Below the pieces are notes generated by a model, which was not told where the DNA came from, ran no database searches, and was given only the letters and a program-made list of their open reading frames with translations. 64,000 nt of DNA, from positions 1-64,000 of the forward strand of contig RWJK01001325.1 in NCBI GenBank assembly GCA_004335835.1. The letters run 5' to 3'. The position numbers and the translations under genes were made by a program. This DNA comes from Scenedesmus sp. ARA3. Taxonomy: Eukaryota > Chlorophyta > Chlorophyceae > Sphaeropleales > Scenedesmaceae. Positions 2,902 to 63,681 of this stretch are shown piece by piece. Position 1 is the stretch's first letter. Each line of letters opens with the position of its first letter.

Positions 2902-4902
2902 GGAAGGACAACGGTCCCAGGCAGCTGCCAGCAACAGATGAGCCTCACCTGGACCAATGCCTGCTGCCCCTCCCCTGCTGCTGCTGCCAGGTCCAGCTGC
3001 AGCAGCACCTCCCTGGTCTCCTCAGCAAACAGGTCTGCAAACTTGACAGTGTGTGCCTGCACAGCAGCAGCGGCGGCAGCAGGACAGCCAGCGCACATGT
3101 CACTCACCCGTGTTGCCCAGCCACCGATGCAATTGAACATGACCATCTGCCGGAGCAGCTCTGATGTGCTTATAGTAAGCAGGGCAGCTGTCATGGCACT
3201 ATGAGTGTCACATGTCACACACATATTAGTGCTCTTACTAATAAATATGCAAAGCTCAAACCCAACGCACCCCTGTAGCGCCAGCTGGCGTGTCCTGGCT
3301 GCCTCCATGCTGCAGCTGTACAATGCTGCAGCTGGCAGCACTGCTGCTGCTGCTGCCATCAGCTGCCAGGGGAGTGATGGTGACCCGAACACTGCTCGCA
3401 ACCACTGACAGCAGCCCACCCAGCGCATCGCCAAAAGCCTCTGGGATCTGGCTGTCGTCCTGTGCAAGTGCAGGAAAGATGACATGAGTAAGTACTCCCA
3501 TAACATTCAAAGGTGACGTACCCCATGAGGCCACCACTGACAGCAGCCCACCCAGCGCATCGCCAAACGCCTCTGGAATCTGGCTGTCATCCTGTGCAAG
3601 TGCAAAAAAGGCAACATGTATTGGGGGTGTAACACGTGTTAGTAACATACAAAGGAGTTGGTCCCCATGTAACCAGCTTTGACAGCAGCCCACCCAGGGC
3701 GTCTCCAAATGCCTTTTGAATCTGACTGTCGTCCTGTGCAATTGCAGGAAAGGCAACATGTATGTGAGATGCAACATGTGTTAGCAACATACCAAGGTGT
3801 TGGTCCCCATGTAACCAGCATTGACAGCAGCCCACCGAGGGCGTCTCCAAATGCCTTTCGGATCTGACTGTTATCCTGTGCAAGTGCAGGCAAAGTAACA
3901 TGTGTTTGATCTGTGACACATGTTAGTAACATACGAAGCTGACGGTCCCCATGTGGCCAGCACTGACAGCAGTCCACGCAATGCATCATCAAACGCCTCT
4001 GGGATCTGGCTGTCATCCTGTGCATGTTTAAACTGACAACAAGTAACATGGACAGACATTACCTATGTTATGGCCTGACTATGCAGTGGCCTGCAACAAG
4101 GATCTACCAAGCAACCATTCCTGTGAACATTCTGCTGCAGTCTTGGTTGTCTGGAATGCACCTGCTGCTCACCTGGATGAAGCAGTAGATGCCGTGGCCT
4201 GCCTCTGCAGTGGCCGGCATCAAGGATCAACCCCGCGCAACTAGTGCGATGAAATGCAGCTCGTGGCTCACCTGATTGAAGCATTAGATGCCATGGCGTG
4301 CCTCTGCAATGGCCCACAACAAGGATCTACTACTCAACCATTCCTGCAACCATTCACAACTAAACTGCCTGGATTGCCCTCGTCACTCACCTGGATGAAG
4401 TAGTAGATGCCATGGCCTGCCTCTGCAATGGCCTGCAGCAGCCGAGCATCATGGTCTGCACCAAAGCCAAAGGTGTGCACACTGACCGGTTGCTCAGCAG
4501 CAGCCAGGCCGGTCAGCTGCGCACGCATGGCTGACACGATGGAGGGCGCGTCACTGGGCCTGCAGTGACGTCAGCAGCAGCAGCAGCAGCAGCAGCAGCA
4601 AGCAGCAGCAGCAGCGGGTCAGCACTGGAGATTGTCAGACCCTGCAAGGCAACATCGCTTGTGTACAGCAGTTTCTTCAGCGGGAACAATTCCAGTGCTG
4701 TACAGCCAGTGTGCAGGTGCTGTGCCTGACGCAACGCACAGTGCTGTCCAGTTTCCATAGCAGCCGCCAGTTTTCGCACCATGTAGGGCAACTTGAAGGC
4801 TACCCCTGCTGCACTTTGCATCCACCACTCACCCCACGTTGGGCAGCCCGTCTGTGCACAGGAACACACTGCGGACCCTGCGCTTGACACCCTCAGCAGC
4901 CC

Positions 4903-10300: not shown

Positions 10301-13300
10301 GCGCTGCACTTGCATCCTGTTGCTGCTGAGTGCTAAGCTGTCCCTGCTGCTGCTGCTGCTGCCGCTGCAGGTCGGTGATGTGGCGCGTCTTGCTGCTGAA
10401 GAGGTGGCACGGCTGCAGGGTCAGCTGGCAGACCTGGACAGGAAGAACAGGCTGCAGGTGGGGCTTGTGTTGCAGGTTGCGTAGCAGAAGGATTATCGGC
10501 AAAGGAATGTGTGACTTCGTATAAGATCCAGAGCAAGACTGCGAGGCGTTGGAATATCGCAGTGAAGTGCAACAGCTATAGCATTTTGAACCAACCCCAA
10601 CCACAAAGCTTGCGTATATCCCTGAACATGGGTATGACGGCAGCAGCTGATGCAAGGCACCGACTCATTTTTGCGTGTGTTTCCTGCAGGTGGAGTATGG
10701 CGCTTGCAGTGTGGACAGCCGTGGCCACATCCCCTGGCAGCATGTGGGCGCTGGCACGCATGCCGGTGGGTGCCATGTGATCTTTGGCTGAGGTTGACGC
10801 ACTGCTTCTTGTGGGCAACCACACAGCGTGTCGCAGCTGTGCCCCGTTGACAGACAGTGTGTGGCAGCGTGCTGTCACCTTCCTGGTTCACGCTCAACTC
10901 AACTGTGAAGTGCGGCTCTCTTACACACATTTAGCTGCTTCAGCTCTGATGTGTGATCTGAGCATGGGTGCCATCTGTGCTGCTTCTGTGGCCACGCCAC
11001 CTGCTCCCTGAGAGCCACGCGCGGCCCGGCCGCCCAGGGCCTGGGGCCCGCCCAACACCAACCTTCCTGTTTCCATAGCCTCCTAAATCAACCACTGCTG
11101 GGCATGAATTGCTGCTGTTGTTGCGGGGGCCACCCGCACCCTGAGAGCCACGCGCGGCCCTGGGACCCGCCCGACACCAATCCCTCTACTGTTAGCCTCC
11201 TGATTAATTCACTGCTGGGCATGAATCGTTGCTGTTTTGCGCAGGCCACCCGCACCCTGAGAGCCACGCGCGGCCCTGGGACCCGCCCGACACCAATTCC
11301 CTCTACTGATAGCCTCCTGATTCAATCACTGCTGGGCATGAACCGTTGCTGTTTTGCGCAGGCCACCCGCACCCTGAGAGCCACGCGCGGCCCTGGGACC
11401 CGCCCGACACCGACCTCACCTTCAGCCCCAAGATCAGCGCCAGAAGCCAGCAGCTCATGGCGGAGCAGCGCGGCCAGGGCGGCAGCGGGGGATTCCTGGC
11501 GCGCCTGGACAATGACCTGAAGCGCCGCCAGGTCAAGATCAAGGTGCGGCGGCAGATGGGTGTCTTGTGCTGTTTGCACGCTGCCCAATGGGTGGCCATG
11601 GTGCATGATCTGCCGCTGAGTACAGTGGTAGATGTCGCAAAGAAGCAGCCCTCACTGTTGACTGACGCCTGTGCATGGTGTGTGGTTTGTTTGCAGGAGC
11701 TGGAGCGGCGCTACAATGCGTTTGGGCCCGGCGCTGTCAGCGCTGCAGATGCCGCCGCTGCTGCCAAGGCTGCTGCTGCTGACGTGTCGCTGGTGCTGGG
11801 CTTCCTCAGCCAGCGCGGCTGGGCAGACCTCAGCGTGCCTACTGGCAGCAGCAGCGGCGGCGGAGGTGGGATGGATGCTGCGGCACAGCAGGAGCTGGAT
11901 GAGCAACTGGATGAGGTGAGGCCGCAGCTGCGCCCATACTGAACTGCTGCTGGTTTGTCTTTGGTTTCCCACTGGAAGTTTAGCACATATGGTCATGCGC
12001 TGCTTTGGTAGGATACATGCGAATGTGGTGCCCTGCATGCGCATGTTAGCAAGTTGCTGCCTGGCCTGCTGATACAGCTGGTGCCTTAAATCATGTAGTG
12101 TGTCATGGCAGCTGTCGTGACATGTGATGTAACGTCATTTGTGCTGCTGCCAGGTGGTTGAGTCGCACTTCAGGGAGCTCAGCTTGGGGGAGGCGCAGCT
12201 GCGCGGCATCCTGGCGGCGCGCGGGCACAAGAAGGTGGCTGCGCTGGCGGCTGTCGTGCGCACGCAGCAGTTCATGGACAGGTGCGGGCTGCAAGTAGAC
12301 GCTGGGCCAAAACTAGGTGGAAGTGCTTCAGCATCAACTGAGTGTGATTGAGATTTGCGGTTTGACTAGCTTTTCCGTCAGCGAAGTACGCTCTGCTGGA
12401 TGATCCTTGGCGCACAATGTATGAACTTCCCACAGATTTATATTCAAAAAACTGCTGCGTGTGCAACTGACTGCAGGTACAAGGCAGACCTGAGCACGCG
12501 CGACAGCCGGCTGTCAGAGCTGCAGGAGAAGTGGTTCAAGCAGCAGCTGCAAGGCGCCCCGGCATCCAGCGGCCCCACCGGCCGCGCGCCTGCGACCCCG
12601 CTGACGGCTGAGCAGCGCGACATGCAGCAAGCGCTGCAGTGGTTCAGGCAGCTGGGCTGGGAGGTGGCGGAGCCGGAAGGTGAGCACCCTTGGATAGGCT
12701 GCAGTGCTATGCTACGCCGGTGTTGGTGCTATCGCGAGTGAGCTGCTAGTGCTGTTCCTTGGGCTACCACATTTATATGACAAAAGACACAGCCACGAAC
12801 AACAGAGGCAATCGCAACACTCTGGCATCTGGCAGAGCATTATTAGACCATACATGCACAGTGCTCAGCGTGTGGCAGTTGGTCTACCCTCTGGCTGAGA
12901 TGTGGGAGTGCTGTTAGAGCACAAGTGCATGATGTAGTCAGGTGACCAAGTTGTAAGCGCTGGCAAATGAAAATTCCAAATGAGATATCATATGGTTTAC
13001 GATGATGCTGTTGCAGATGACTGTGAGGATCAGCTGTCAGCGCTGATCAAGCGCGCACGTGCATATAAGGCAGAAGTGGAAAAGCTGCATGACAAAGCTG
13101 CAGCAGCTGCAGCCACAGGGGCGCAGCAGGCAGCTACTGCTGTTGGCGAGCCGCAGATCAACTGGCAGGGCATTCCCTGGAGGTGAGCGAGGAGCGCTGT
13201 GCTGGCTGCAGCTTGGGGTGCACATCTGCCTTCTGTTGCCGCGATTGCCAAACCCAGACAGTAGCCTCAGACCGCGCTGTATGCCAGGTCAAATAGCAGC

Positions 13301-16522: not shown

Positions 16523-18037
16523 TCAGGCCAGCTGCTTCTTAGGCTCCTTCTGCTGCTGCTGCTGCTCCTCCTGCTGCTGCCGCTGCTGCTGCCGCTTGGT
16601 GATCTGCTGCAGCACGTCTGTCAGCCCCGCCTTGTAGGCTGCGGGGAAGTGGTCGGTCATGCAGCTGGTGCGCAGCACGATGCGCTTGAAGCGCTGGTCT
16701 GCGGGGTACAGAGAATTGCATAGGCACATATGTATCAGTTGGATGGCAAGTGGGCAGGCAGGTTGCAGCACGATGCGCTGGTCCGCGGGGTGCACAGAAC
16801 TGCATAGGCACACGTCAGACTGACATATGTATCACATAATTGGCAAGCGAGCAGGCAAGTTGCAGCCTGATGTGCTGGAAACCCTGATGCACAGGCCGCA
16901 CACACAGCCTCATACTGAGCAAGGCACAGCCATGCAGCAGCATGCCTTTGCTCACCTCCTTTGCCGTCAACCAGCTCAAAGTGCTGCTGCTCTTCCTCCA
17001 CAGACTCATCCACAGGCCGCACATACAGCCTCATACGAAGCAGCACACAGCCATGCAGCAGCATGTCTCCTCACCTCCTTTGCCGTCAACCAGCTCAAAG
17101 TGCTGCTGCTCTTCCTCCACAGACTCATCCACAGGCCGCACATACAGCAGCCGGCCAGGTGCATACAGCACCACATCCACAAACTGCCCCGCCGCTGCTG
17201 CTGCTGCCACCTCTGCTGCCTCTCCTGAGTCATCAAATGACTCCAATGCGCCTGCAGGCTCGTCTGCTGCATTGATGGGAGGTGCCATGACAGCACCTGC
17301 TGCTGCTGCCGCTGCTGCTGTTGTTGTGCTGCTGCTTCTGGCGACTGCAGCTGCCAGTGCAGGTGCTGCACTGCCTTCAGTGGTGCCTGCTGGTGAAACA
17401 ACGTCCACTGCCGCAGCTGCCGCTGCTGTTTTGATGGACTCTCCTGCCGCAGGAGCTGCAGCAGCAGTGCTTGTCTCAGCTGCTGCTGCTGCTGCTACTG
17501 CTGCCGCCGCAGTGCTGCTGCTGCTGATTGATGTGCCTTTCAGAGCTTCAGCCACACGCTCCGCTACCTCGCGCACCTGCATCATCAGCAGCACGCAGCA
17601 CATACGCAGCTGCATCAGGCGATGCCTCACACTTCACACAGCAGTGCTATTTAATGTGGCTAAGGAGCCCAGACCTTATTTGAAGCCTCAGCCTCTGCAC
17701 TGTGAGCGCTAGCCGTAGATGGCCAGCATAAACACGGCACCCTGTGCTCAAGAACAAAGTCATGACGAAACAATGCCTGCCCACCGGACCATGCACCATC
17801 AGCTTCACCTGTTCATGATTACCGTATAGTCAAGTCACTGCGCACCTTTGGATTCTGCAGCACTGCCCTGGCCCCTCCAGCTGCAGCACTGCCCTGCCCC
17901 TCAGCCCCAGCAGCAGCAGCAGCAGCTTGACCATTAAATGAATAACTGTGAAATTGTTTCTACTGCTCACCTTTGGATGCTGCAGCACTGCATTGGCCCC
18001 TGCCCCAGCAGCGCTGCCCTGCCCCTCAGCCCCAGCC

Positions 18038-25621: not shown

Positions 25622-28600
25622 CTAACGCCGCACCCCTCCACCCCCAACCGCAGGCCCGCCCCCGACCGCGCCCAGCACCAAGCTACTAATACTGCCCGAG
25701 CTCTTGCTCGTCGCGTGCTGCTTGATGCGCCGCATCTCCTGGGGACTAAAATGCAGCAGCCGGCCAAGCACCCCAAACATTGCCCCATTCGTGGGAAGCT
25801 CCCCAGACTCAAACCCAGACACAATCACGCTGCGCAGATACAGCGCGTCGCGATCCGTTATCTGGCTCATGCTTTCGAGCCTCGCCACTTCCTCGCGCAA
25901 GATCCTCTCCTGGCGCTCCGCCTCTTCCCAAGCCGCCTTCCACTCTTTTACCTGACCATCTAATTCCTGCAAGCGGTGCCTTGCAGCCTCAGGCGCTAAG
26001 CCCTTGAGGCTGAGGCTGATGTCACGGCCAGGCGAGCCGCCACCGGCAGCAGCTGCAGCACTGCTGCTGCTGCTGTCGCCGGGTGCAGCGCCGCCGCCGG
26101 ATGTGCCGCCAGGCGTGCCAGTGCCGTCGATGCTCAGGCGCAGCGTGCTCAGCGGCAGCGGCTCTGCTGCTGCTGCTGACGGCTCGACCGGCATGAAGGA
26201 CGCGCCTGCTGCAGCTTCAGGGGTTGCAGCAGCAGCAGCAGCGGGCGGCTCCTGCAGGCCTGCAGTGCCTGTGCTGCTGCGGCGGCCGACTGCTGCTGCC
26301 AGCAAACCCGACGACAGTGGTGACACGCCCTGCACCATACTGGCGCTACGAGAGTGGCTAGGTGTACCGTTAGGCGAGCGACCTGCAGCAGCTGCATGGA
26401 GGCTGCTGCTGAGTGTGCGTGGCGAGCTGCCGCTGCCGCCCCTGCCACTCCCCAGCAGCATGCCCGTGAACTTCCCGCTGAAAGCAGGGCTGGTCAAACC
26501 TCCACCTTGCCCAGTTTGACCGCCGCTTTGACTGCTGGTTTGACCGCGCTCTGCCGCTGCTGCTGCTGTTGCTGCTGTTGCGGCACTCCAAGCGCCCGAC
26601 AGGGTTGATGGCAGCGGTGCGGGTGGATGCGAGGGAGACGCTGCAGCGGATGAGAACGCTGACCCCCAGCCCGCACCTGAGGACAGCGTCCGCTGATGCT
26701 GCGGCTGCAGCGGCTGCTGCTGCTGCTGCTGGCCTGCAGAAGATCTGGAACCAGATCCTGAGAGCAGGCTGCTGCTAGACAGGCCGCTGCCGGCAGCGGC
26801 TGCTGCTGCTGCCGCTGCTGCTGCTGCGCCGGCGTGGCCGAGGCTTCGCAGCTGCTGCCGCAGCGCTTCCAGCTCATTATCTTTCTGCTCCAGGATGTCA
26901 TATGCACGCTCCCGCAGTGCCGTCATCTCCTCCTGCAAGGCAGTGTGCGCCATGGCGGCAATCCGCATGAGCAGATGCACAGCAAAGCGGCTGCTGCAGC
27001 AACCCATTGCTGCTGTCGTGCACAGTGCACGACACCACTGTGTCGCGCAGCCACTGCTAACAACGCCGCCACGGAAAATGAGGTCGTCCAAGTGATTTCA
27101 TTACGGTACAAAAAGGTCACAGCAATTAAAGCTCACAGTGCTGCATGTAGGCAGCATGCACGCGTGTTGCTGCAGGAGATCACGCAAGCCCAACGAAGCC
27201 CTGCCCGCCTCCACACACCAACAAACGCCTCCTCACACCTCCCTCACACGCATGACGCACTACAAGCATTTATTGAACCACACCCAGCTCACCTGCAGAG
27301 CTTCATACTGCTCCTGCAAGCGCGCAACCGCCTGCTGCGCATCAGCCCTCGCCTGCTGCAGCTGCTGCTGCAGCCCAGCCACCTCAGCAGCATGCTGCTG
27401 CCGCGCGGCAGCAGCAGCAGCAGCCGCATCCTCCTTTGCTGCTGCCAGCGCCGACTCAGCGCCTCCAAGCTCCTCTGCGAGGGTGTCTGCGCGGGTGGCG
27501 GCTGCGGCTGCTGCTGCCTCTGCTGCTGCGGCGCGCGCGCGCGAGCTGTCTGCTGCTGCGGTGAGGGCGGCGAGCTCTGACTGATTTTGCGCCTCCATCA
27601 CCTCCATGTCATCAGCCTGCAGCGGCAGCAGCAGGCGGGGATGTGCGTTACATTAGCGATTACTGAAGGTGTGCAAATTGTGCATGTGGCGATGACACCA
27701 CTGATTTTGGGCCTCCATCACCTTCATGTCATCGGCCTGCAGCAGCAGAGAGGTAAGCAGGCAGATACTTTGTATTTGAACTAGCGGTGCTGTTCAGGTT
27801 GTGCATGTAGTGTCGGCGCCAGCAATCGCGTCTATTACCTCCATTTATCGGCCTGCAGGGGCAGCCGCAAGCATGCAGATGCTATTCACTACCAATAATG
27901 GGGAACTTGTGCATGTATTTTTGCCACTCATTTTCGGGCTTCCATAACCGCCATGCCATCGGCCTGCAAGTGAACAAAAGCGTCACCCAAAACGTCACCC
28001 TTGCCAGGCACTCACTGCCTTCTGCGCCGCCTCCTCGCGCACAGCCGCCTCCGCCGCCGCCACCACCAGCAGCACGGCCCGCGGCCAGCGCTCCCGCGGC
28101 TGCTGCCCAAGGCCTTCCAGCGCCGACTGCGCTGCGCTGCGCGCGCCGTCTGCTGCTGAGCGCGCCTCGTCGAGCGCTGCGGAGAGCGCCTCGCACTCAG
28201 CTGACACTGCCAGTGCGCGCTGCTCCAGGCGGGCGACCTGCAGAGAGAACACAGAGGCAGCAGCAGCAGCAGTGTGTTGATGAGGTGTAGTGCCTCGCAC
28301 TCGGCTGACACTGGCAGCGCGCGCTGCTCCAGGCGAGCAGCCTGCAGACAGCAGCAATGACATTGTCACCCTGCCACACACGCTGCAGCACCATTTACGA
28401 GCTGCGCCAGCACCACCATCCATCTAGCCCTCCGTGCGCGCCAGCCGCTTGATAGCTGATCATGCTCAGCCACCACCACAAGCACCATGTATATTACTGT
28501 AACAAAGCAATCAATAACAACATGTAGGCTTGGCAGCACACTGTAGTGCATGCCAGCCCACCTGGCCCTCGGTGCGCTCCAGCCGCTCCCGCAGCTTGTC

Positions 28601-30623: not shown

Positions 30624-30698
30624 AGGGGGGGGGGTTCGAAGTGTGGCCGTGTGAAGCGGCGATTATATTGTGTAGTTCTGGACGTTTGGCCGTCACCT

Positions 30699-30770
30699 GC
30701 GCCATTAGTGTAGTGGTTAACATATTCGCCTTCCAAGCGAAAGAGACGGGTTCGATTCCCGTATGGCGCA
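30699..30770 (+). tRNA. trnG-UCC: tRNA-Gly (anticodon UCC)
   Basis: A full cloverleaf can be drawn. The acceptor stem pairs gcgccat with atggcgc. The anticodon stem ttcgc/gcgaa encloses loop cttccaa with anticodon TCC. The T arm acggg-ttcgatt-cccgt contains the B box ggttcgattcc, and the A box is tagtgtagtgg. The discriminator is A, CCA is not encoded, there is no intron, and a TTTT terminator follows at about 30775. These traits fit a nuclear Pol III gene. Confidence 0.95.
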
Positions 30771-31633
30771 AGCGATTTTGCTCATGATTCCTGTACATCT
30801 GCCTTTTTCTGCGTCAGGGCTGGCTACACGATCAACAAATGACCTCTTCTCGTCCATGTGCTGTATGCCTGCATCAGCTGTACAGTACTACTGTGGGTGG
30901 AGGCAGAAGGAATGCCTGCAATCAGCCTGAGGGTCAACCTGATGGACGCACTGACATTCAGAGCACTGACAGGTCTAGCGGGCTAGCTCCTGGTCCAGTG
31001 TCTCCAACTGTTAACATGGAGGTAGCAGAGTTTTTCAGCCACTGTGTTTCACCTGGCCCCAGCATGCAGTGACCGCCGCTCTCATACTATGGTAGTATGG
31101 CAACGTTGCTGTGGCTCACTAAGCCGCTGAGTAACATAGTATGTCTTTGACCTCGCCACACTCTTGCTTCTGTCAAAGGTAATGCTTTGAGTGTGTGGTT
31201 TGGTTTGAGGCTGCATGTACTGTTGAGAGCATGCTGTCACTGCGGCTGGCTGTGGAGAAGCACCAGCCACGTGCAGCAGCTGGGCGCATGCGCAGGCTTG
31301 CCCGCGTCTGACAGAGTCTCATGCTTGGCGCTAGCCCGGCTAGCATCAGGGGCCCTGATGGCGCCTGCGCATCGGTAAGCAGGCTCTTCTGAAGTCATGT
31401 CAAACTGCACAGTGGCTGCTGCACCATGGACTTCATTTGAGACAGGTATATATACCGTCCATTGTCACCTGTTACCTGAGTGTGACAATGCTGTCACTCA
31501 GTGGTGGGTGACATGTACAAGGGTACCTGTTTCTCAAGCGCTCAAGGACCAGCACCGTTCCTGACACCCGGTTTTCAAAAGTCTTCAGTTGTAAAGTAAA
31601 TCTGCTGTCTGCTCTGCTGGTGTAATAGCTGCA
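30771..31633. other. Intergenic region before the RbgA-like GTPase gene
   Basis: No supported gene. An open frame at 30839-31072 has no homology or splice support. The stretch presumably includes the promoter and 5' UTR of the GTPase gene. A tatatata run lies at about 31447-31455. Confidence 0.4.
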
Positions 31634-32104: not shown

Positions 32105-34037
32105 TTGTTGGCTGCGCACAGCTGTAGAAATGTCATGCCTGTTCCTGAGCTCTTGTACAGTGCACCATGCCCTAACCTGTCAGCCTAAGGCAGCCTAGGC
32201 CCGCCTACCTGAAGATGCTACCGGCACCAGCGATACACAAAATGATGCACAAGGGCGACAGGGATTGGCCATGCATCAAAAAGGCCTTCACTTTACACTG
32301 CTGCCCTTCACCTGCATCTCTGCTTTACACTGCTGCTTTGAAACTGGTGGGTGCTGCACCTCGCCTCGCTGCAGGTGCCATTGTGGATTGGCTCCAAGCC
32401 GCGGCTGGTGGTGATGAACAGGCAGGACATGATCGCACGCGCAGACAGGGCAGCGTGGGACAAGCACTTGACGGCAGAGGCAGCAGCAGCGCAGGCAGCA
32501 GCAGACGCCAAAGCAGCCGCAAAACGCAAAGCAGCAGCAGCGCGCGCTGCCGCAGCCGCAGATAGCGAGCAGCAGCATGCAGCGCAAGTGCAGCAGCAAG
32601 AGGAGGAGCAGCAGCAGCAGCAAGCCCAGCATGAGCCAGAGGATGCTGGGCCGCCGCCGCTGCCGCAGCAGGTGTTCTGGACTGACGGCAAGACGGGCTC
32701 AGGCGTGCACTCGCTGCGCCGCGCAGCGCTCAAGCTGAGCGACCACATCAACGCCAAGCGCGCGAAGCGCGGCCTGGCGCCCCGCCCGGTGCGCGCGGTC
32801 GTGATCGGCTTCCCCAACATTGGCAAGTCCGCACTCATCAACCGGCTGCTGGGGCGGCGCGTGGTAGAGAGCGCGGCGCGGCCCGGCGTGACGCGCGTGC
32901 TGAGGTGCGCTGACATGGCAGCGTGCTGCTGGAGGTGCCCTTGCGCTGCTGCCTTCTGTGCTGTGAGGCTGGCTGGCTGGCTGGCTCGCTGGCTGGCTGT
33001 AGAGCTGCACTCTGCATGAGCAGCAGCAGTCAAGGGCTCACTGCATGCCACGGCCAACGTTTGACCTGTGTGCCCCTGTTGTTGCTGCCTGCATTGCTGC
33101 AGGTGGGTGCGGCTGGGCGGCGAGCTGGACCTGCTGGACGCGCCCGGCATCATCCCTGCAGCCTTCAACGACCAGGCTGCAGCACAGGCGCTGGCCATCT
33201 GCAACGACATCGGCGAGGCTTCGTATGTGGACAGCCTCATCGCGGCAGCCATGATAATACGCATCAAAACGCTGCCGCGCAACAGGTGCGTGCAGAGGGC
33301 AGGGCATGCAGCGGGGGTGCGGGCGTGTGTGGCACATGTTTGCTGGCATTGTGTGCGCAGCTGCAGCCTACTGCTGACGCGTGTGTCACTGGGTAGCGTC
33401 TGCCGTGCGTGGCTGTGGGTCATCTGCAGCTGCGACAAGGCGCACGACAGTGAATACTGCACAGCACGGGCTGGGATTGGGCATGCAGGTGGGGCTTTGG
33501 GCTGCGGCGTGTAAGCCTGCTAGAAACTGCTGACGCGTGTGTCACTGGGTAGCGTCTGCCGTGCGTGGCTGTGGGTCATCTGCAGCTGCGACAAGGCGCA
33601 CGACAGTGAATACTGCACAGCACGGGCTGGGATTGGGCATGCAGGTGGGGCTTTGGGCTGCGGCGTGTAAGCCTGCTAGAAATCATGTTCGTGCCTGCAG
33701 TCTGCTGTTGGTGCTGTGTCACTGGGCATGTGACGTGGTGCGTAACAGCGTATCTTGCAGCTGTGGCAACTGTGCGGTTGCCGCCAGCTGAACTTCACAT
33801 TGAAACAACAATTGACGCCCTTGTATTCCCCCTTCCCTGCGCAGGCCCATCCTGGCTGCGCTGCAGCGGCGCTACCGCGCCGACCCGCTGTCCATGAGCG
33901 CGGAGGACTTTGTGCTGCACGTGGCGGGCGAGGTGTTTGGCGGCGACGCGGAGAAGGCGGGCGTGCGGCTGCTGGGCGACTACCGCAACGGCGCGCTGGG
34001 CGAGTTTGCGCTGGAGCTGCCCGGCATGCAGCACTAG
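31634..34037 (+). CDS. RbgA/YlqF-type circularly permuted GTPase, probably organellar (419 aa)
   Basis: Exons: 31634-31987, 32375-32904, 33103-33285, 33845-34037. The family helps assemble the large ribosomal subunit in bacteria, chloroplasts and mitochondria. G motifs run in permuted order: DAR motif EVRDARIP (about 104-111), G4 as NRQD (133-136), G1 GFPNIGKS (263-270), a PGVTR switch and G3 DAPG (307-310). [13 protein letters not shown] precedes the DAR motif, as in RbgA. The first about 75 residues are rich in Arg, Ser, His and Ala and poor in acids, suggesting an organelle transit peptide. An in-frame TAA upstream supports this start. An Ala/Gln-rich coiled insertion of roughly 75 residues separates G4 from G1. 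G4 has Arg where Lys is usual. The third intron contains a perfect 156-bp tandem repeat. Confidence 0.92.
33371..33682 (+). repeat. Two-copy 156-bp tandem repeat, apparently identical
   Basis: 33371-33526 and 33527-33682 appear identical base for base. They lie inside intron 3 of the GTPase gene and include no exon sequence. The identity implies a very recent duplication or an assembly artefact. Confidence 0.9.
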
Positions 34038-56676: not shown

Positions 56677-59600
56677 ATGGTACAGGACATGGACTCTGGT
56701 CCCACTTTGCGGCCCATCGCCACTCGGCCGCGTATGCCATCTTCCACAGGAGATGCAGTACCTGCTGCTCTGCCAACATCACCAGCAGCAGACAGGACCC
56801 CAAAAGTTGGACACCTCAACCTTGATGACAGCCCAGCAGGCACAACAGCAGCAGCAGGCTCCAGCTCCAGCTCCTCTACACCATGGGGCCGGCTCTTCAC
56901 CAGCACAAGCCACATGATGGGCTTCTCCCCTAGGCTCAGCGTTGTTGCTAGCAACAGCAGTGAGGGCAGCAGGTGAATGCCGTGCTCCTGCAAGACACGG
57001 CTGCCGTGTCATGCCTTGCAGGCATCTGCTACCGTATGGCATGCTGCAGTACAGCACGTGAAGCAGAGGTACTTCAGCGGCTGCTTACCTGCGTGGAGCC
57101 TGCAGGCCAACTGCATTACCTTACAAATGTTGCTTCCACAGATAATCCCCAAATTGACGCCCTGCACCCATTAACGACACGCACTAGCTTGCAGTGTGCA
57201 TAGTAAGCTACGTTATTCGCTCAACGCTTTCTGCCCCGCCGCCGCACACTGCAACAGCAACATCAGCACTCCAGTCAGGCGCAAGAAGCACCACCACCAA
57301 GAAGCGCAACGTGGCAGCATCCTTGCGTATCCTGCAGGCTCAGCTGCTGCACGCGCGCGTGGTACATCAGCGGCAGGATTGGGGCCTGCAGGGGAGATGC
57401 TGGGCAAGCAGGGCCTGGCCCTGAAGCAGCCACTGGTGAGCTGCGCTGTACCTCTTGCAGGACTGCAGTTAGGACCTGCTCTTCATAGTGGCTATGCCAA
57501 CTGCTATGGCAGCCTGCTTGGTCAGGCTGACACACAGAGCAGTGTTCAACAAGTTTCCTGCACCATCCACCAACACAAACATAATGTGTTCATTCATCAG
57601 CAAATTGGCGTTGCTGGTGAGCAACTGTGCTGCTGTTGAATGCCATGCTGCTGTTTGCAGGAAACCAGCCAGGAAGAGTATGCAGATACAGGTGTCAAGG
57701 CGCGCATCCCCCGCGATGAGCGCCCTGTGACAAAGCACTGGAACCCAGTGGGCCTGGTCATCTGCCTGTTCTACATCGCTGCGGCCATCTACTACTTTGT
57801 GATACGTGCCACGCGCACACTGGACATGGGCTATCCAGGGTGAGTGGCTTTCAAGCAGCAGCAACTGAGGCACCTGGTTGCAGGACGCCATGTCGTGGAA
57901 TTGTCAGCACAGGCAATGGTTTCCTGCAAGCAGCGGCAGGGCCCTACTATAGCAAATTGGTACGAAACCATGGTAAGGCATCCAGAGTGCGCCACCTGGG
58001 CAGAACAGGGCTGACAATGCATTCGCCATGCAAAGTCAGTCCTGCAAGAAGGCTCTTCTTCTCCTGCAAGCATTGAACGAGTTGAACACAGATGTGGGCA
58101 AGCAAGTCACACAAGTCATTACTGCATGCACAGCTGCCCTATTCAGATGCATGCTGTGTACTCACCTTGAGCTGCTCGATGTGCCGATGTTGCCTGCTGC
58201 AGCTATGGTGGGTTGGTGCTGGCGATAGAGGTCATTTCTTCCACAGCAACATTCGGCTATGCAGTACTGCTCATCAAGCACACTCGCTCAAAGCGAACCA
58301 AGGGCCTGCCCATCAGCAAGAAGGGCGCATTGCCGCCAAACTTGGAGCAGTTACAGTTTCATGTGCGCGTGCTGATCCCTTGCTACAAGGAAGCAACGGA
58401 TCTTGTGAAGGAGACTGTGCTGGGTGCGCTGAAGGCGCCGCTACCCAAAGACACACTCCGCACGGTGTATCTTTGCGATGATGGCAAGGATCCCTCAAAA
58501 GAAGCAATGGTGCGTGAGCTGAACAAGGAGTGGGGCTGCCTGGAGTATGTCAGTGGCCGCACGCGCGATCCAAAAGGTGCGTTGTTCTACGGGGTTGATG
58601 TGTTGGGAAAGGCAGCGGCAGCTGCATGCACTTGCTTCAGTGGTCCAGGCTCCTCCCTTTGCAGCACTGGCTGTGGTGGGTTGCTATGACAGCAGCAGGA
58701 GCAGCGGCAAGGGTAGGGGTGTCATCATGAGCTGCATAGTTTGACCTGCAGCAGCCAGGATATGGCGATGGCAGTTGCTGCAGTAGCTCTACTGTCCTGT
58801 GACCGCAAAGTCTTTGTGTGCTGCCATGTTGCTTTTTTGACATAGGCGAAACCAACGGCAAGTCCAACAACCTGAACCACTGCCTGACGAAGTTTATCTA
58901 CAAGGACTACTACCCCTGCAATCCGCAGGGACCTAAGATCCCCAAAACTGAGGTGGGTGTGCAGGTGTCTGCATCCTTCATAGCATGCTTCAACTTCTGC
59001 TGATGTGTGAAGAACAGCACTGCTGTTTGAATCCATGCTTGTGCACCCCGTGATACGTTGGCACTGTCAAAGACCGGCTGCAATAACCATATCCTAACTG
59101 TGTTGTTCCTACTGCATACAAATGCAGGTGATGGTCGTGTTTGACGCTGACATGGTGGCCCGGCCCAACTTCTTCACCAAAATCCTGGAAGTCATGCAGG
59201 ACGATGACTGCGCACTGTGCCTCACCCCCCAGGGCTTCAACAACGTAGATGCCCAGTGCGACATCTTCAACAATCTCAATTTATCGTTTTGGGAGTACAT
59301 GTTGCCAGGTGAGCAGGCATACCCAATCTGTGACTCAGCCGCAAGTGGGTTTTGAAATTGTCAGCACCATCAATTTCAAACAGAAGTTCTGCACATCCAG
59401 ATATCTGCAGCACTAACCAGCTGGTGCTTGCTTCTGCAACAAGTCCTTTGCTGTGCTGCCTGGTCATTTCCACCTGAAGGTGGTTGTATGTGCGTCCTGG
59501 CACCATGTCAGACACAAATCCTCACCTGGTATGCCTGGTGCTGCAAATCTTGGCCTTGCAGGAACGGACGCATTGGGCTACATTGCGTGTACTGGAACCA

Positions 59601-62600
59601 ACTTCTGCCTGCGGTGCTACCCTCTCGCTGATTGCGGTTGGTTCCCGACCTTCACCATCACTGAGGTAAGAAGAATGATGGGTTTAAGCACCAGGTGCCC
59701 AATGTTCCGAACACTCTGTGTCAGGCTGGTGTCTGTTGTTGCAGCTTATTGGTAATGGTCACCCAACACTGTTGCATCGCTCCAGCAATTTATCACATAT
59801 CAGCTGCTTGTGCACCTGATCATACTGGCAGGACTACTGCCTGGGCATGCTCATGAAGGCCAAGGGCTACAAGGCAGGCTACCTGAACGAGTACCTGGCA
59901 GTTGGCGAGGCCCCAGAGGAAGTGCGCAACGTGTTCAGGCAGCGCTCACGCTGGTGCAAGGGCCAGATGCAAGTAAGTGTATCCGGCAGCGCAGTACAGA
60001 GTGATGAATGTTGTCCCACACACTGTGATGCATGGTAGGCAACCAGCTGCGGCTGTCAGAACGTTCGTTGCCATGCTTCATGTTTGCACCAGGTGAGAGT
60101 AAGCCCTCGCAGTGCATGAGACCCTGGGGAATTGCACTGCCATTGTTGTAAGGCCTGCATCTGCAGGGATGTGCCTTTCATGAGCTTCAAACGGCTTTGT
60201 GTGCTGCCAGCAAGATTGTCACTGCAGTAACTATTATGTTATGTTTTGACCCACTGCAGGTTTTATTTTCCAAGCACTGTCCGCTGTTTAACACGGGCCT
60301 CACGCTGGGCATGCGCCTGCTGTACACCTCAGTCACCTGGAATTACATCACCAACAGCCTGGCGGTGCCTTGCTCAGTGCTGGTGCCCTTCATCGCCCTG
60401 TTCTTTGGCATCTACCCTTTGGTGCTCAACCGCGATTTTGCGCTCGCCAGCACTCTGTACTACGCGGCATCAACAATGGTCACCATGGTGCGGAGCGTTT
60501 GTTCAGCGCTGCAGATGCATGCTTTCCCCTTGCATCATGTTCCTTCTTCAACCACCTTGTTCGTGTGGTGTCCACTGTGCTTTCACTGTGACAGCTGCCT
60601 GCCCCTGATGCACACTCTTGTCACAACATACACCGTGTAAGGATAAAGACAGCTGCCAGGTAGCGCACATGATGTCTGACCACCTGGCGCTGACCATGTA
60701 CATTGTTTACAGTTTGCTGCTCTGCCCTGCCGCCTGGTCTGTTCCTGCAGTACTGCACCGACCGCAAGCACCTCAAGCCGCTCTGGTTCTGCATCGTTTC
60801 CTGCCACCTGTTATGGTTCACCTTCACCAAAGCAGTGTTCAATGTGCTGTTCAAGAAGATGGTGGGCAGGGTAGTGGTGTTCAAGTCCACCAAGAAGAAG
60901 GGCGAGGACGATGGCAGGGGTGATGGCAAGCGACGCTGGTTTGCGCCACCTCGGAACATTGGAGACATGGAAGGCACACTGGATGCCTGGGTGCTGCTGC
61001 TGAGCTTCAGCATCTCTGCGCTGACTGCAATCATGGGTGTGTTTCAAATCATCGACCAGCCATACACAGCACAGGGGCAGTTCCGCTTCTTCCTGGCACT
61101 CTCCATCTTCTGGGCCCTCTACAACATGATCCCGCCTGCGCTGTTCATCTTCTACTGCTACAACAAGGGGCGGCTGTTTGAGGACTTCTGCTCCTTCTGT
61201 ATCACAGCCTCATTCCTGCTGGGCATCGGAGGCACAGTGTGTACATGGCTGGTACCAGGTAGGCACAGCAGGAAGTGTGGGGATGCTGTGGCTAACCTGC
61301 ATGTTGCTAAGACCTTTCTTCTGGTGCGCGTCTTACAATGCTCTTGCAACATTGTGCACCTGCAGATGACTACAACATGGGCCAAGTGCTCAGTGTGTCC
61401 CTGCAGTTCTTTGAGGCACAGGTGAGCTGCTGGCAGGTGCATGCCTACGCTTCCCAGCAGGCGGCTGCATCAACTCCCGTCAACATCGCAGCACACAAAC
61501 AGCCGCATGCATGCAGCCATCAGAACGGTGATGCAAGACCGACAGTCCGGGATACAGCTGGGATGATCAACCAATTTAGCAGTCACACAGCCTGTGCTTG
61601 GACTTCGTCCTGATCTGGCTTTGTTTGTGCCTGCAGCGGTCTGGCAAGTTGCCCAGAATTTCAAACACCCCTTGGCGCGGTGATTCTGGCCTGTGGGATT
61701 CTGTGCTGCTGCCCAATGGCAAAAACTACTCTCTGATTGGTGGATGGTATGACGATGGTGAGTTGCACAGCAGCAGGCACTATGCCTGTGTCTGCGTCAT
61801 GGGCGACTGTCATTGGCAAGTGGTACGTTGTTTATCGCTGGGCAACAGAAGGCGCTATCTGGTTTAGAAGCAGCCTCAGAGAACTACTGCACAGCCTCTC
61901 AGTCAACAATGCTGGCCATGGAAAGCTTGTAAAAGCCGCCATTCTGCACTCCTCTGTGACAACATTGACCAACGCCAATCCGTATATGCGCCATGCTGCA
62001 CCGCAGGGGGCATGCTCAAGCTGAGCTACAGCACTGCCTTCACAGTATCCATGCTGAGCTGGGCATACTACGAGTTCAAGGGTGGTTACAAGGCTGCCAG
62101 CAGCGTGGACTTTGGTGCCAACACCATCCGCTGGGGTGCAGACTACCTCATGAAGGCGGCAGCGCTCAACGTCACCAGCGGCGGCGTTGCAGTGCCGCCC
62201 ATCTTTGTCGCACAGGTGGGTCACATCAACCTTTCCATGTGTCACTGTGAACCGCGCCACAGTAAGCAAACATGCTCGTTTCTATGTTGTGCAGCATGCA
62301 TCAACTGCTCAGTCATGACCCCGTGCAGGCACTCTTTGATGCCCATCCTGCTCTGCTGCTGCTTCTCCTGCAAACCTGTGTGCTGCTGCTTAGGTGGGCG
62401 ACATGACCAAGGACACCGCCTACTGGGGCTCACCAGAGCGCTGCATGCTTGCACGCCCTGCCACCTACCTCTCCTCCGCGCGCCCCGGCACGGATGTGAT
62501 GGCCATGTCTGCGGCTGCACTGGCTGCAGCAGCCGTGGCGATCCAGGATGAGTCGATGGAGGTGGCTGACATGTACCTGGCTGAGGCCATGGGCATCTAC

Positions 62601-63681
62601 AAGCTGGCATTGCAGTGGCCAAAAGGATACTACGCCAATTATGTGGAGAGCGGCAAGCGCTACCCATCAGTGTCTATGTATGATGACCTGGCGTACGCTG
62701 CAGCCTGGCTGTACACAGCGACAGGTCAGCAGTCCTACTTGGACAGCGCAGTCAAGTTTTACAGCCAGCACACATCAGCAGAGCGTCACGTAAGCGCCAA
62801 CCTATACATGTTCAACTACGAGAACGTGGTTCCAGCACTGGACCTGCTGTTATACAAGGCCACCGGAGACCAAGCGTACAAGCAGAATGTGCAGGGCTTT
62901 GTGAAGGAGTGGATGAACACACACTCAGCATCAGGTGATGTGTACTACACACCGCGCGGCCTGGCGAAGGCAGAGCCTGAAGGGCTGCTGCAGCACACTG
63001 CGAACGCAGCGTTCTACACGCTGCTGGCTGCCAAGGACGTGCTGGACAAGAAGAAGTTCATGCTCTATGCGTGCTGGGCGCGCGGCCAGATTGGCTACAT
63101 GGTGGGAGATGCTGGGCGCTCTTATGTGACAGGTGAGCACTGGATGGCACGGGTCGTGGTGGCGTGCGCAACGTGATTGGTCCAGTCAGGTTTGACAGCA
63201 TGTAACAACAGCATCTGTTGCGCCATCAATGTTGTGCATGCTTTTCGTCGCGATGGCCGCCTTCTTGTGCGCTGTGCTGATGCATCTGCTGCAATGTGCG
63301 CCGCGCTCTGCAGGTTATGGAGCCAGCCAGGCGCACAAGACCCCGCACAAGGCCGCCTCCTGCCCGCCTGCTGACGTGGCCGACTGCACCTGGGAGTCCG
63401 CCTACTACACCACAGACCCCAACTACCACACGCTGCGTGGCGGCCTGGTGGGCGGGCCCGATGACAGCGACATGTGGTCTGACGACCGTGACATGGGCAA
63501 TGCAGCCAACACAGTTGGCTTGCTGAACAGTGCTGGCTTCTCTGCAGCAGTGGCGGGGCTGGTGCAGTTTGATATCAACATGGCCAAGTGCATGCAGGGC
63601 AATGGCTTGATCCAAACCCTGATGCTGAAGTCCACGGGGCTGCCGCCTGCATCTGGTCAGCGCTGGTGGCAGGGCATGTGA
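56677..63681 (+). CDS. GT2 cellulose-synthase-like protein fused to a GH9 domain (1255 aa, 15 exons)
   Basis: Exons: 56677-56972, 57279-57435, 57661-57839, 58203-58576, 58846-58952, 59128-59308, 59562-59665, 59832-59972, 60260-60487, 60751-61258, 61366-61421, 61637-61757, 62007-62215, 62394-63132, 63314-63681; every phase agrees. Two membrane segments (about 172-235) lead into a processive GT2 domain with LCDDGKD (about 300), FDADM (377-379), FTITED (467) and QRSRW (503-507). This full BcsA/CESA-type set implies synthesis of a beta-linked glucan or mannan from a sugar nucleotide. About six further membrane segments follow (515-758). From about 759 a GH9 domain runs to the end: DYNMGQVLSVSLQFFEAQ, WRGDSGLWDS, WGSPERCML, TPHKAASCP, GGLVGGPDDSD. 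GH9 enzymes cut beta-1,4-glucans, but YDDGGGMLKL and NTVGLLNSAGF lack the expected base Asp and acid Glu. Confidence 0.88.

Follow-up and report, generated by a model that had tools for sequence, protein, structure and literature searches.

Why the synthesis of cellulose needs cellulases is an old open question. KORRIGAN is a free-standing type II membrane GH9 with its own anchor and intact catalytic residues, plant CESA has a zinc finger and a full PF03552 cellulose synthase domain, and the BcsA orthologue carries a C-terminal PilZ domain. The cellulase families GH6 and GH9 have unrelated folds. We examined a gene of the green alga Scenedesmus sp. ARA3 that appears to place a GT2 synthase and a GH9 domain in one polypeptide. 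The gene lies on the forward strand of contig RWJK01001325.1, within a stretch of 64,000 nucleotides (positions 1 to 64,000) that is called the window throughout.

Tunicate CesA proteins join GT2 to a C-terminal GH6 domain without the catalytic Asp, and tunicates have a separate GH6-1 gene in which that Asp is mostly kept (PMC7464555, PMC10334666). KOR1 is assigned a role in cellulose synthesis (PMC13181414), and a hydrolase gene lies within a bacterial synthase locus (PMC9693552). Like the tunicate protein, the window gene product would link a BcsA-like GT2 to a cellulase fold at its C-terminus that is mutated in catalytic residues, while an intact free copy of the family exists elsewhere. 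It differs in that the domain is GH9 where the tunicate type has GH6, in that it occurs in green algae, and in that some relatives keep the GH9 residues. The two fusions look convergent, and the different domain combination appears to support the proposal of the initial annotation that this is an independent version of the tunicate arrangement. The parallel extends further than was claimed there, as the tunicate GH6 also lacks its catalytic Asp (PMC7464555). The window gene repeats the tunicate pattern of a synthase bearing a catalytically mutated cellulase fold, but with a different hydrolase family and in an alga.

Like KORRIGAN and plant GH9 class A, the window protein would have a membrane-associated GH9 linked to cellulose synthesis; unlike KORRIGAN, its GH9 is continuous with the GT2 synthase and its catalytic residues are lost. 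With BcsA and its partner BcsZ (GH8) it shares a GT2 core of the same fold and the association of a hydrolase with a synthase, but the bacterial proteins are separate polypeptides, the hydrolase is GH8 and not GH9, and no PilZ domain is listed in the window protein. Taken as a whole, the gene probably encodes a BcsA-type synthase with a C-terminal, catalytically lost GH9 derived from a cellulase.

The GT2-GH9 gene and its reading frame

Fourteen GT..AG introns link 15 exons between 56677 and 63681 (+), giving 3768 nt and 1255 aa with no internal stop. The features of the gene are as follows.

56677..63681, +: whole predicted coding sequence, GT2 synthase fused to a GH9 pseudo-cellulase; 15 exons, 1255 aa
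56677-56972, 57279-57435, 57661-57839, 58203-58576, 58846-58952, +: exons 1-5, from the spliced translation
59128-59308, 59562-59665, 59832-59972, 60260-60487, 60751-61258, +: exons 6-10, from the spliced translation
61366-61421, 61637-61757, 62007-62215, 62394-63132, 63314-63681, +: exons 11-15, from the spliced translation
56677..57435, +: exons 1-2 (residues 1-151), N-terminal region of low complexity and the least certain stretch of the model
58363..59960, +: GT2 catalytic domain (PF13641), residues 265-509, with CYKE, CDDG, DAD, TED and QRSRW; intron-interrupted
60751..61258, +: exon 10, with interface helix, FKSTKK motif and transmembrane helices (TM) TM5-TM7, TM7 at ~61186-61251; from the AlphaFold2 helices of relative P0005
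61259..61365, +: GT2/GH9 boundary intron, 107 nt; the boundary lies inside a single open frame in paralogue C1043
61383..63495, +: GH9 domain (PF00759), residues 765-1194, catalytic site lost; intron-interrupted
62009..62011, +: codon 819, a Gly aligned with Asp57, the catalytic base of 1ks8 (DAGD there, DDGG in the window protein)
63511..63513, +: codon 1200, a Thr aligned with Glu412, the catalytic acid of 1ks8 (NEVA there, NTVG in the window protein)

Relatives were collected in two protein searches, in which 7993 and 7989 candidates were scored and the best 120 of 254 and 120 of 271 matches were listed; for relatives added later, 83 of 83 matches were listed, many free GH9 rows among them being near-copies. 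Among the matches listed, P0001, P0002, P0003, P0005 and P0007 covered residues 150-1255 to 98-100% at 60-79% identity. The N-terminal 150 residues form the weakest part of the model: 142 of them align with P0001, and 53 of these are identical. A 9-nt ambiguity at the donor of exon 9 (after 60487) was resolved by relatives with the common join ..VT[MS]|YCT... Pfam recovered PF13641 (E 4.3e-18) and PF00759 (E 5.3e-87) in the positions given above, and also PF13632.

At the junction of the halves, 61258 is spliced to 61366 with one base carried over, as the initial annotation had placed it, and the resulting ..CTWLVP|DDYN.. has the same letters in the four relatives aligned (P0001, P0002, P0005 and P0008). 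In paralogue C1043 one uninterrupted frame runs from TM6 through TM7 into GH9 and reads ...ACTWLVPDDYNLGQVLNVSLQFF; in paralogue C199 the counterparts of exons 11-13 form a single exon. The label of P0001 (GHUV01000347.1.p1, 'ORF type:complete len:1266') has, in our reading, the form of a transcript assembly. Its partner in the GH9 tree is the C199 paralogue and not the window gene, so P0001 documents the architecture for a relative and not for the window locus.

An alternative would be two adjoining genes wrongly joined. A 107-nt intron offers little space for a terminator, a promoter and a start, the C1043 join is unbroken, and the join recurs in full-length relatives; we rejected two separate genes on the intron and the C1043 join, and give misjoining next to no chance. 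The single gene of 15 exons initially proposed is thus borne out by the absence of stops, both Pfam domains, the relatives and C1043, and as read from the DNA the fusion is real: one gene, one predicted protein.

The motifs first reported for the GT2 half (D, DAD, TED, QRSRW) were found in the spliced protein, and D, DxD, TED and QxxRW in a membrane-embedded GT2 are features of processive beta-glucan synthases of the BcsA/CESA superfamily. The nearest solved structures to this half are BcsA, whose fold the GT2 core shares, and FKSTKK occupies the BcsA/CESA gating-loop position, which we take to have a gating role in those enzymes. In an NCBIfam scan of four relatives, none reached the cut-off of the BcsA equivalog model TIGR03030 (699.1 bits): P0001 scored 117.4, P0005 120.5, P0026 122.4 and P0125 71.9 bits. 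A Pfam scan of the window protein found no PilZ domain at E 0.001, GH9 being in that place, and no zinc finger; short of the plant CESA pattern, PF03552 matched only at positions 415-527 of 722 (30 bits). Most likely the window gene encodes a BcsA-type membrane beta-glucan synthase making cellulose or a related beta-1,4-glucan; its product could also be mannan or mixed-linkage glucan.

Catalytic residues and fold of the fused GH9 domain

The window GH9 was aligned with the termite GH9 1ks8, the numbering of D54, D57 and E412 being checked in the alignment; we take these three residues to be catalytic in 1ks8. Asp54 is kept as Asp816, Asp57 is replaced by Gly819 and Glu412 by Thr1200. An alternative gap placement sets Asn1199 opposite Glu412, and either way MGNAANTVGLLNSAGF contains no acidic residue. 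The domain had been called complete, which held for its extent and not for its active site, where the equivalents of Asp57 and Glu412 are lost.

The same genome (87 Mb, 1567 contigs) was searched for further GT2 and GH9 loci. At six loci, a lower bound, a GT2 match was followed by a GH9 match on the same strand: C963 (the window), C199, C1043, C1037, C836 and C1407. Splicing was worked out in full for C963, and the other own-genome sequences are unspliced exon pieces. Among the five paralogues the one-frame join was seen in C1043 alone; in C199, C1037, C836 and C1407 adjacency suggests it, with gaps of ~0.25, 1.1, 2.9 and 0.4 kb. Glu412 was absent from all six fused loci (T, A, T, S, R and A), and was present in all eight free GH9 loci scored of ten fetched (two in C602, and C369, C1383, C1010, C712, C1347 and C579), a difference with Fisher p 3e-4 when relatedness is ignored.

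These observations bear on the proposal of a synthase with a built-in cellulase, which would cut or edit the nascent chain in the manner of KORRIGAN or BcsZ but within one protein. The GH9 fold is good and Asp816 is kept; moreover, P0020, P0026, P0121 and P0122 keep all three GH9 residues, so the proposal may hold for those relatives. For the window gene it fails on Gly819 and Thr1200, on the lack of an acid near Glu412, and on the contrast within the genome, where none of six fused GH9s is acidic at Glu412 and the free ones keep Glu; we rejected it there as very improbable. Any cutting could be done by the separate GH9 genes with intact residues.

A second candidate, a GH9 half that has no function and is decaying, would suit the variety of residues replacing Glu412 (nine kinds among 41 fused rows). 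The ratio of nonsynonymous to synonymous substitution rates (dN/dS) in GH9 was 0.18-0.19, a rough value because synonymous divergence is high (uncorrected 0.51-0.62). The frame is open over five exons and the structural columns of GH9 are conserved in fused rows. In the AlphaFold2 model of P0005 (T. obliquus), which stands in for the window protein, the GH9 fold is intact by Foldseek comparison, the list of structural matches being a re-examination of Foldseek's own and carrying no weight against families that it does not name. On dN/dS and the conserved columns we rejected decay, which has about as slim a chance as an active cellulase. Judged by its residues, the GH9 of the window gene is predicted to keep the family fold but to be catalytically disarmed.

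The exon pieces of C1043 are mostly 92-100% identical to P0005, others 62-89%, and the two lie 0.008 apart in the GH9 tree. C1262:35032-41868 (in L029) is a GT2 paralogue without a GH9 match on its contig, so the genome holds both fused and unfused synthases. The PF13641 profile alone found only two loci in this genome and missed that of the window because introns cut the domain; a 582-aa protein query recovered the rest. Exon-like pieces are repeated in the paralogues (SRWAKG.. four times, LD[VM]YLLVPMLWALYNAL four times and QV[LF]FSKECPLLDTGL-like three times); exons of this gene family seem often to have been duplicated locally. They lie at:

L016:8832-9405 and L017:2472-2705: repeated exon-like pieces, C1037
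L018:2275-2827: repeated exon-like pieces, C836
L015:4-594: repeated exon-like pieces, C1043

Distribution and history of the fusion

The 309 rows compared (307 database proteins, the window protein and 1ks8) comprised 70 fused rows including the window protein, 215 rows with GH9 only including 1ks8, and 24 that were GT2-only or under thresholds. Among the matches listed, Glu412 was kept in 14 of 55 scorable fused GH9s versus 210 of 214 scorable free ones; the fused rows (n=70) divided into 14 with Glu, 41 with another residue and 15 with none aligned, and the free rows (n=215) into 210, 4 and 1. Before the later relatives were added, D/D/E was kept in 12/63 fused and 139/143 free rows, again among the matches listed. 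Substitutes in the 41 fused rows were R (17), T (6), W (5), S, A and Q (3 each), V (2), I and H (1 each), and never Asp. Both Asp were retained in four of these rows (P0013, P0014, P0015 and P0131), which fits, without proving, a loss of Glu before Asp.

The search for GT2 plus GH9 architectures in chlorophytes that the initial annotation had called for returned both domains in named entries of ten green-algal genera (Raphidocelis, Monoraphidium, Tetradesmus, Coccomyxa, Myrmecia, Trebouxia, Chlorella, Chlamydomonas, Haematococcus and Bryopsis), which ruled out a fusion peculiar to one genome. The source names of these entries are 'cellulase', 'six-hairpin glycosidase' or 'hypothetical protein'; public databases already show the fusion, under labels like 'cellulase'. 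The present reading corrects such automatic names on algal synthases, a point of consequence when wall digestion or biomass traits of relatives of Scenedesmus and Chlorella are to be predicted. In the open-licence literature, in the portions available, we found no description of a green-algal GT2-GH9 protein; those of PMC9915684, PMC11096116, PMC3797821, PMC7570368 and PMC3499364 do not mention one, and that of PMC5977491 gives GH9 as absent or partial in Chlamydomonas reinhardtii and Volvox.

Rows P0020, P0026, P0121, P0122, P0068, P0230 and P0125 share the GT2-GH9 architecture and, unlike the window gene, keep two Asp and Glu and may be active. In P0020, P0026, P0121 and P0122 no loss of TED or QxxRW was flagged, and for the rows with both motif sets (these four and P0068) active editing is conceivable. 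Of the 63 fused rows of the first alignment, which preceded the later-added relatives, 61 were scored for GT2 motifs, and most retained them. QxxRW was missing from six (P0063, P0066, P0125, P0126, P0128 and P0131), and three are gapped there. P0125, P0126 and P0128 keep every GH9 catalytic residue and have lost QxxRW (P0125 and P0128 are named Bryopsis); in them, opposite to the window gene, it is the cellulase half that looks alive and the synthase half that looks dead. This reversed pattern cautions against a single function for all fusions, and such losses have no bearing on the window gene's own GT2 motifs. With active-looking and inactive versions of one architecture at hand, the question of why synthesis needs cellulases becomes testable by comparison.

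Four free GH9s also lack Glu412: P0016 (Styela), P0067 (unnamed), P0070 (Mactra) and P0137 (Ciona savignyi). The two tunicate names and one mollusc name (P0016, P0137 and P0070) suggest separate animal pseudo-GH9s.

A phylogeny was computed for each domain, as initially suggested. The GH9 tree, a quick search, held 81 rows, including 22 of the 215 free rows and nine of 13 own-genome pieces; fused rows below 330 aa and 17 others (long branches, fragments and near-copies: P0009, P0012, P0028, P0029, P0031, P0038-P0041, P0045, P0047, P0050, P0063, P0066, P0072, P0126 and P0136) were excluded. The fused rows were compatible with one clade (approximately unbiased [AU] test, p 0.555), and the tree did not demand the several independent fusions we considered, yet the GT2 tree was mixed: GT2-only rows stand among the fused ones, requiring at least nine changes over the starred branches. 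The mixture could reflect later GH9 loss, split gene models or domain swaps. One origin of the fused GH9s is compatible with the GH9 tree but not shown.

In the GH9 tree Glu needs two changes, one at a 34-row clade that contains the window gene and whose named members presumably belong to Chlorophyceae and Trebouxiophyceae, the other at P0131/P0139. Glu is kept in one clade of P0020, P0026, P0121-P0126, P0128, P0130 and P0132, Bryopsis among them, and in a second of P0068, P0230 and P0231 with Botryococcus P0232, whose GH9 reads DAGD and SEVG and whose GT2 part is a 99-residue match only. The GH9 of the window gene probably began as a cellulase that became attached to the synthase in a common ancestor of several groups of green algae, and would have lost its catalytic acid and base afterwards.

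Orientation and possible role of the GH9 domain

In BcsA and CESA, GT2 and the FxVTxK loop are cytosolic. Two helices are predicted ahead of GT2 in the window protein; behind it would follow TM3 (long), TM4 (weak), an interface helix and TM5-TM7, leading straight into GH9. The density of Lys plus Arg alternates as five helices after GT2 predict (0.043 out, 0.159 in, 0.046 out, 0.184 and 0.137 in, 0.070 out, 0.131 in), the family-averaged hydropathy of the interface helix is 0.87, and sequons are in excess in GH9 and in deficit in GT2. With two helices before GT2 and five after it, sequence and model place GH9 very probably on the outside, directly after the last helix.

The GT2 half most likely extrudes a beta-glucan, and an outward, non-cutting GH9 would meet the emerging chain. 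We tentatively favour a role in which the inactive domain binds or guides the chain at its exit from the channel. Cleft aromatics are largely kept in fused rows (Y206 in 0.83; the W253 position is W in 24 or Y in 17 of 45 scorable), which favours guiding; the 48 'not intact' rows of this comparison include seven without a residue at Glu412, and at least P0072 among them is probably intact.

Several observations weigh against this picture. The residues W301, H124 and R305, which we take to hold sugar in the GH9 cleft, are lost along with the catalytic ones, although W301 is kept in just 0.58 of intact fused rows as well. All three catalytic residues are retained in 14 of 55 scorable fused GH9s, so fusion as such does not imply inactivity; the rows are related and p-values overstated, and the dN/dS is rough, as noted above. 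A 19-residue hydropathy scan of the window protein alone found only four strong helices after GT2 and missed TM4. On that count GH9 would lie inside; it takes the family average (hydropathy 1.26) or the P0005 model to reveal TM4.

The loss of W301, H124 and R305 weakens chain binding and favours a domain acting mainly as a protein-protein scaffold, in oligomer or linear terminal complex contacts, without touching glucan. Conserved structural columns and the intact P0005 fold agree with a scaffold, but the retention of Y206 and W253 does not, and the position of GH9, next to the final membrane helix, would fit contact with a chain that is being extruded. We consider a scaffold the next most likely role after chain guiding, though less likely than not. 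As a contrast case, catalytically mutated plant mannanases fail to rescue glucomannan synthesis (PMC13181414).

In the window gene a cellulase fold is tied to a synthase and its cutting residues are gone, while other members keep them. By analogy with tunicates, such fused domains may help to make cellulose and not degrade it. It is conceivable, if somewhat short of an even chance, that algae and tunicates each fused a BcsA-type synthase to a cellulase (GH9 and GH6, respectively), disarmed it and kept intact copies. If so, evolution would have arrived more than once at the same way of handling nascent glucan, a cellulase fold that does not cut, placed at the mouth of the synthase, and the role of KORRIGAN-like partners may lie partly in holding and not in cutting.

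Elsewhere in the window, nine other long frames gave no Pfam family when scanned beside a frame with a GRIP domain, which is possibly a Golgi golgin. The remaining features are:

25625-27097, -: 491-aa open frame with a GRIP domain (26 bits against a cut-off of 24.4) close to its end
30698-30771, +: tRNA-Gly (TCC) gene

Tandem arrays of 117-156 bp units in 2 to 3.7 copies occur at 3501-4024, 11075-11411, 16890-17148 and 33370-33682 of the window; their units are about as long as the exon pieces that recur in the synthase paralogues.

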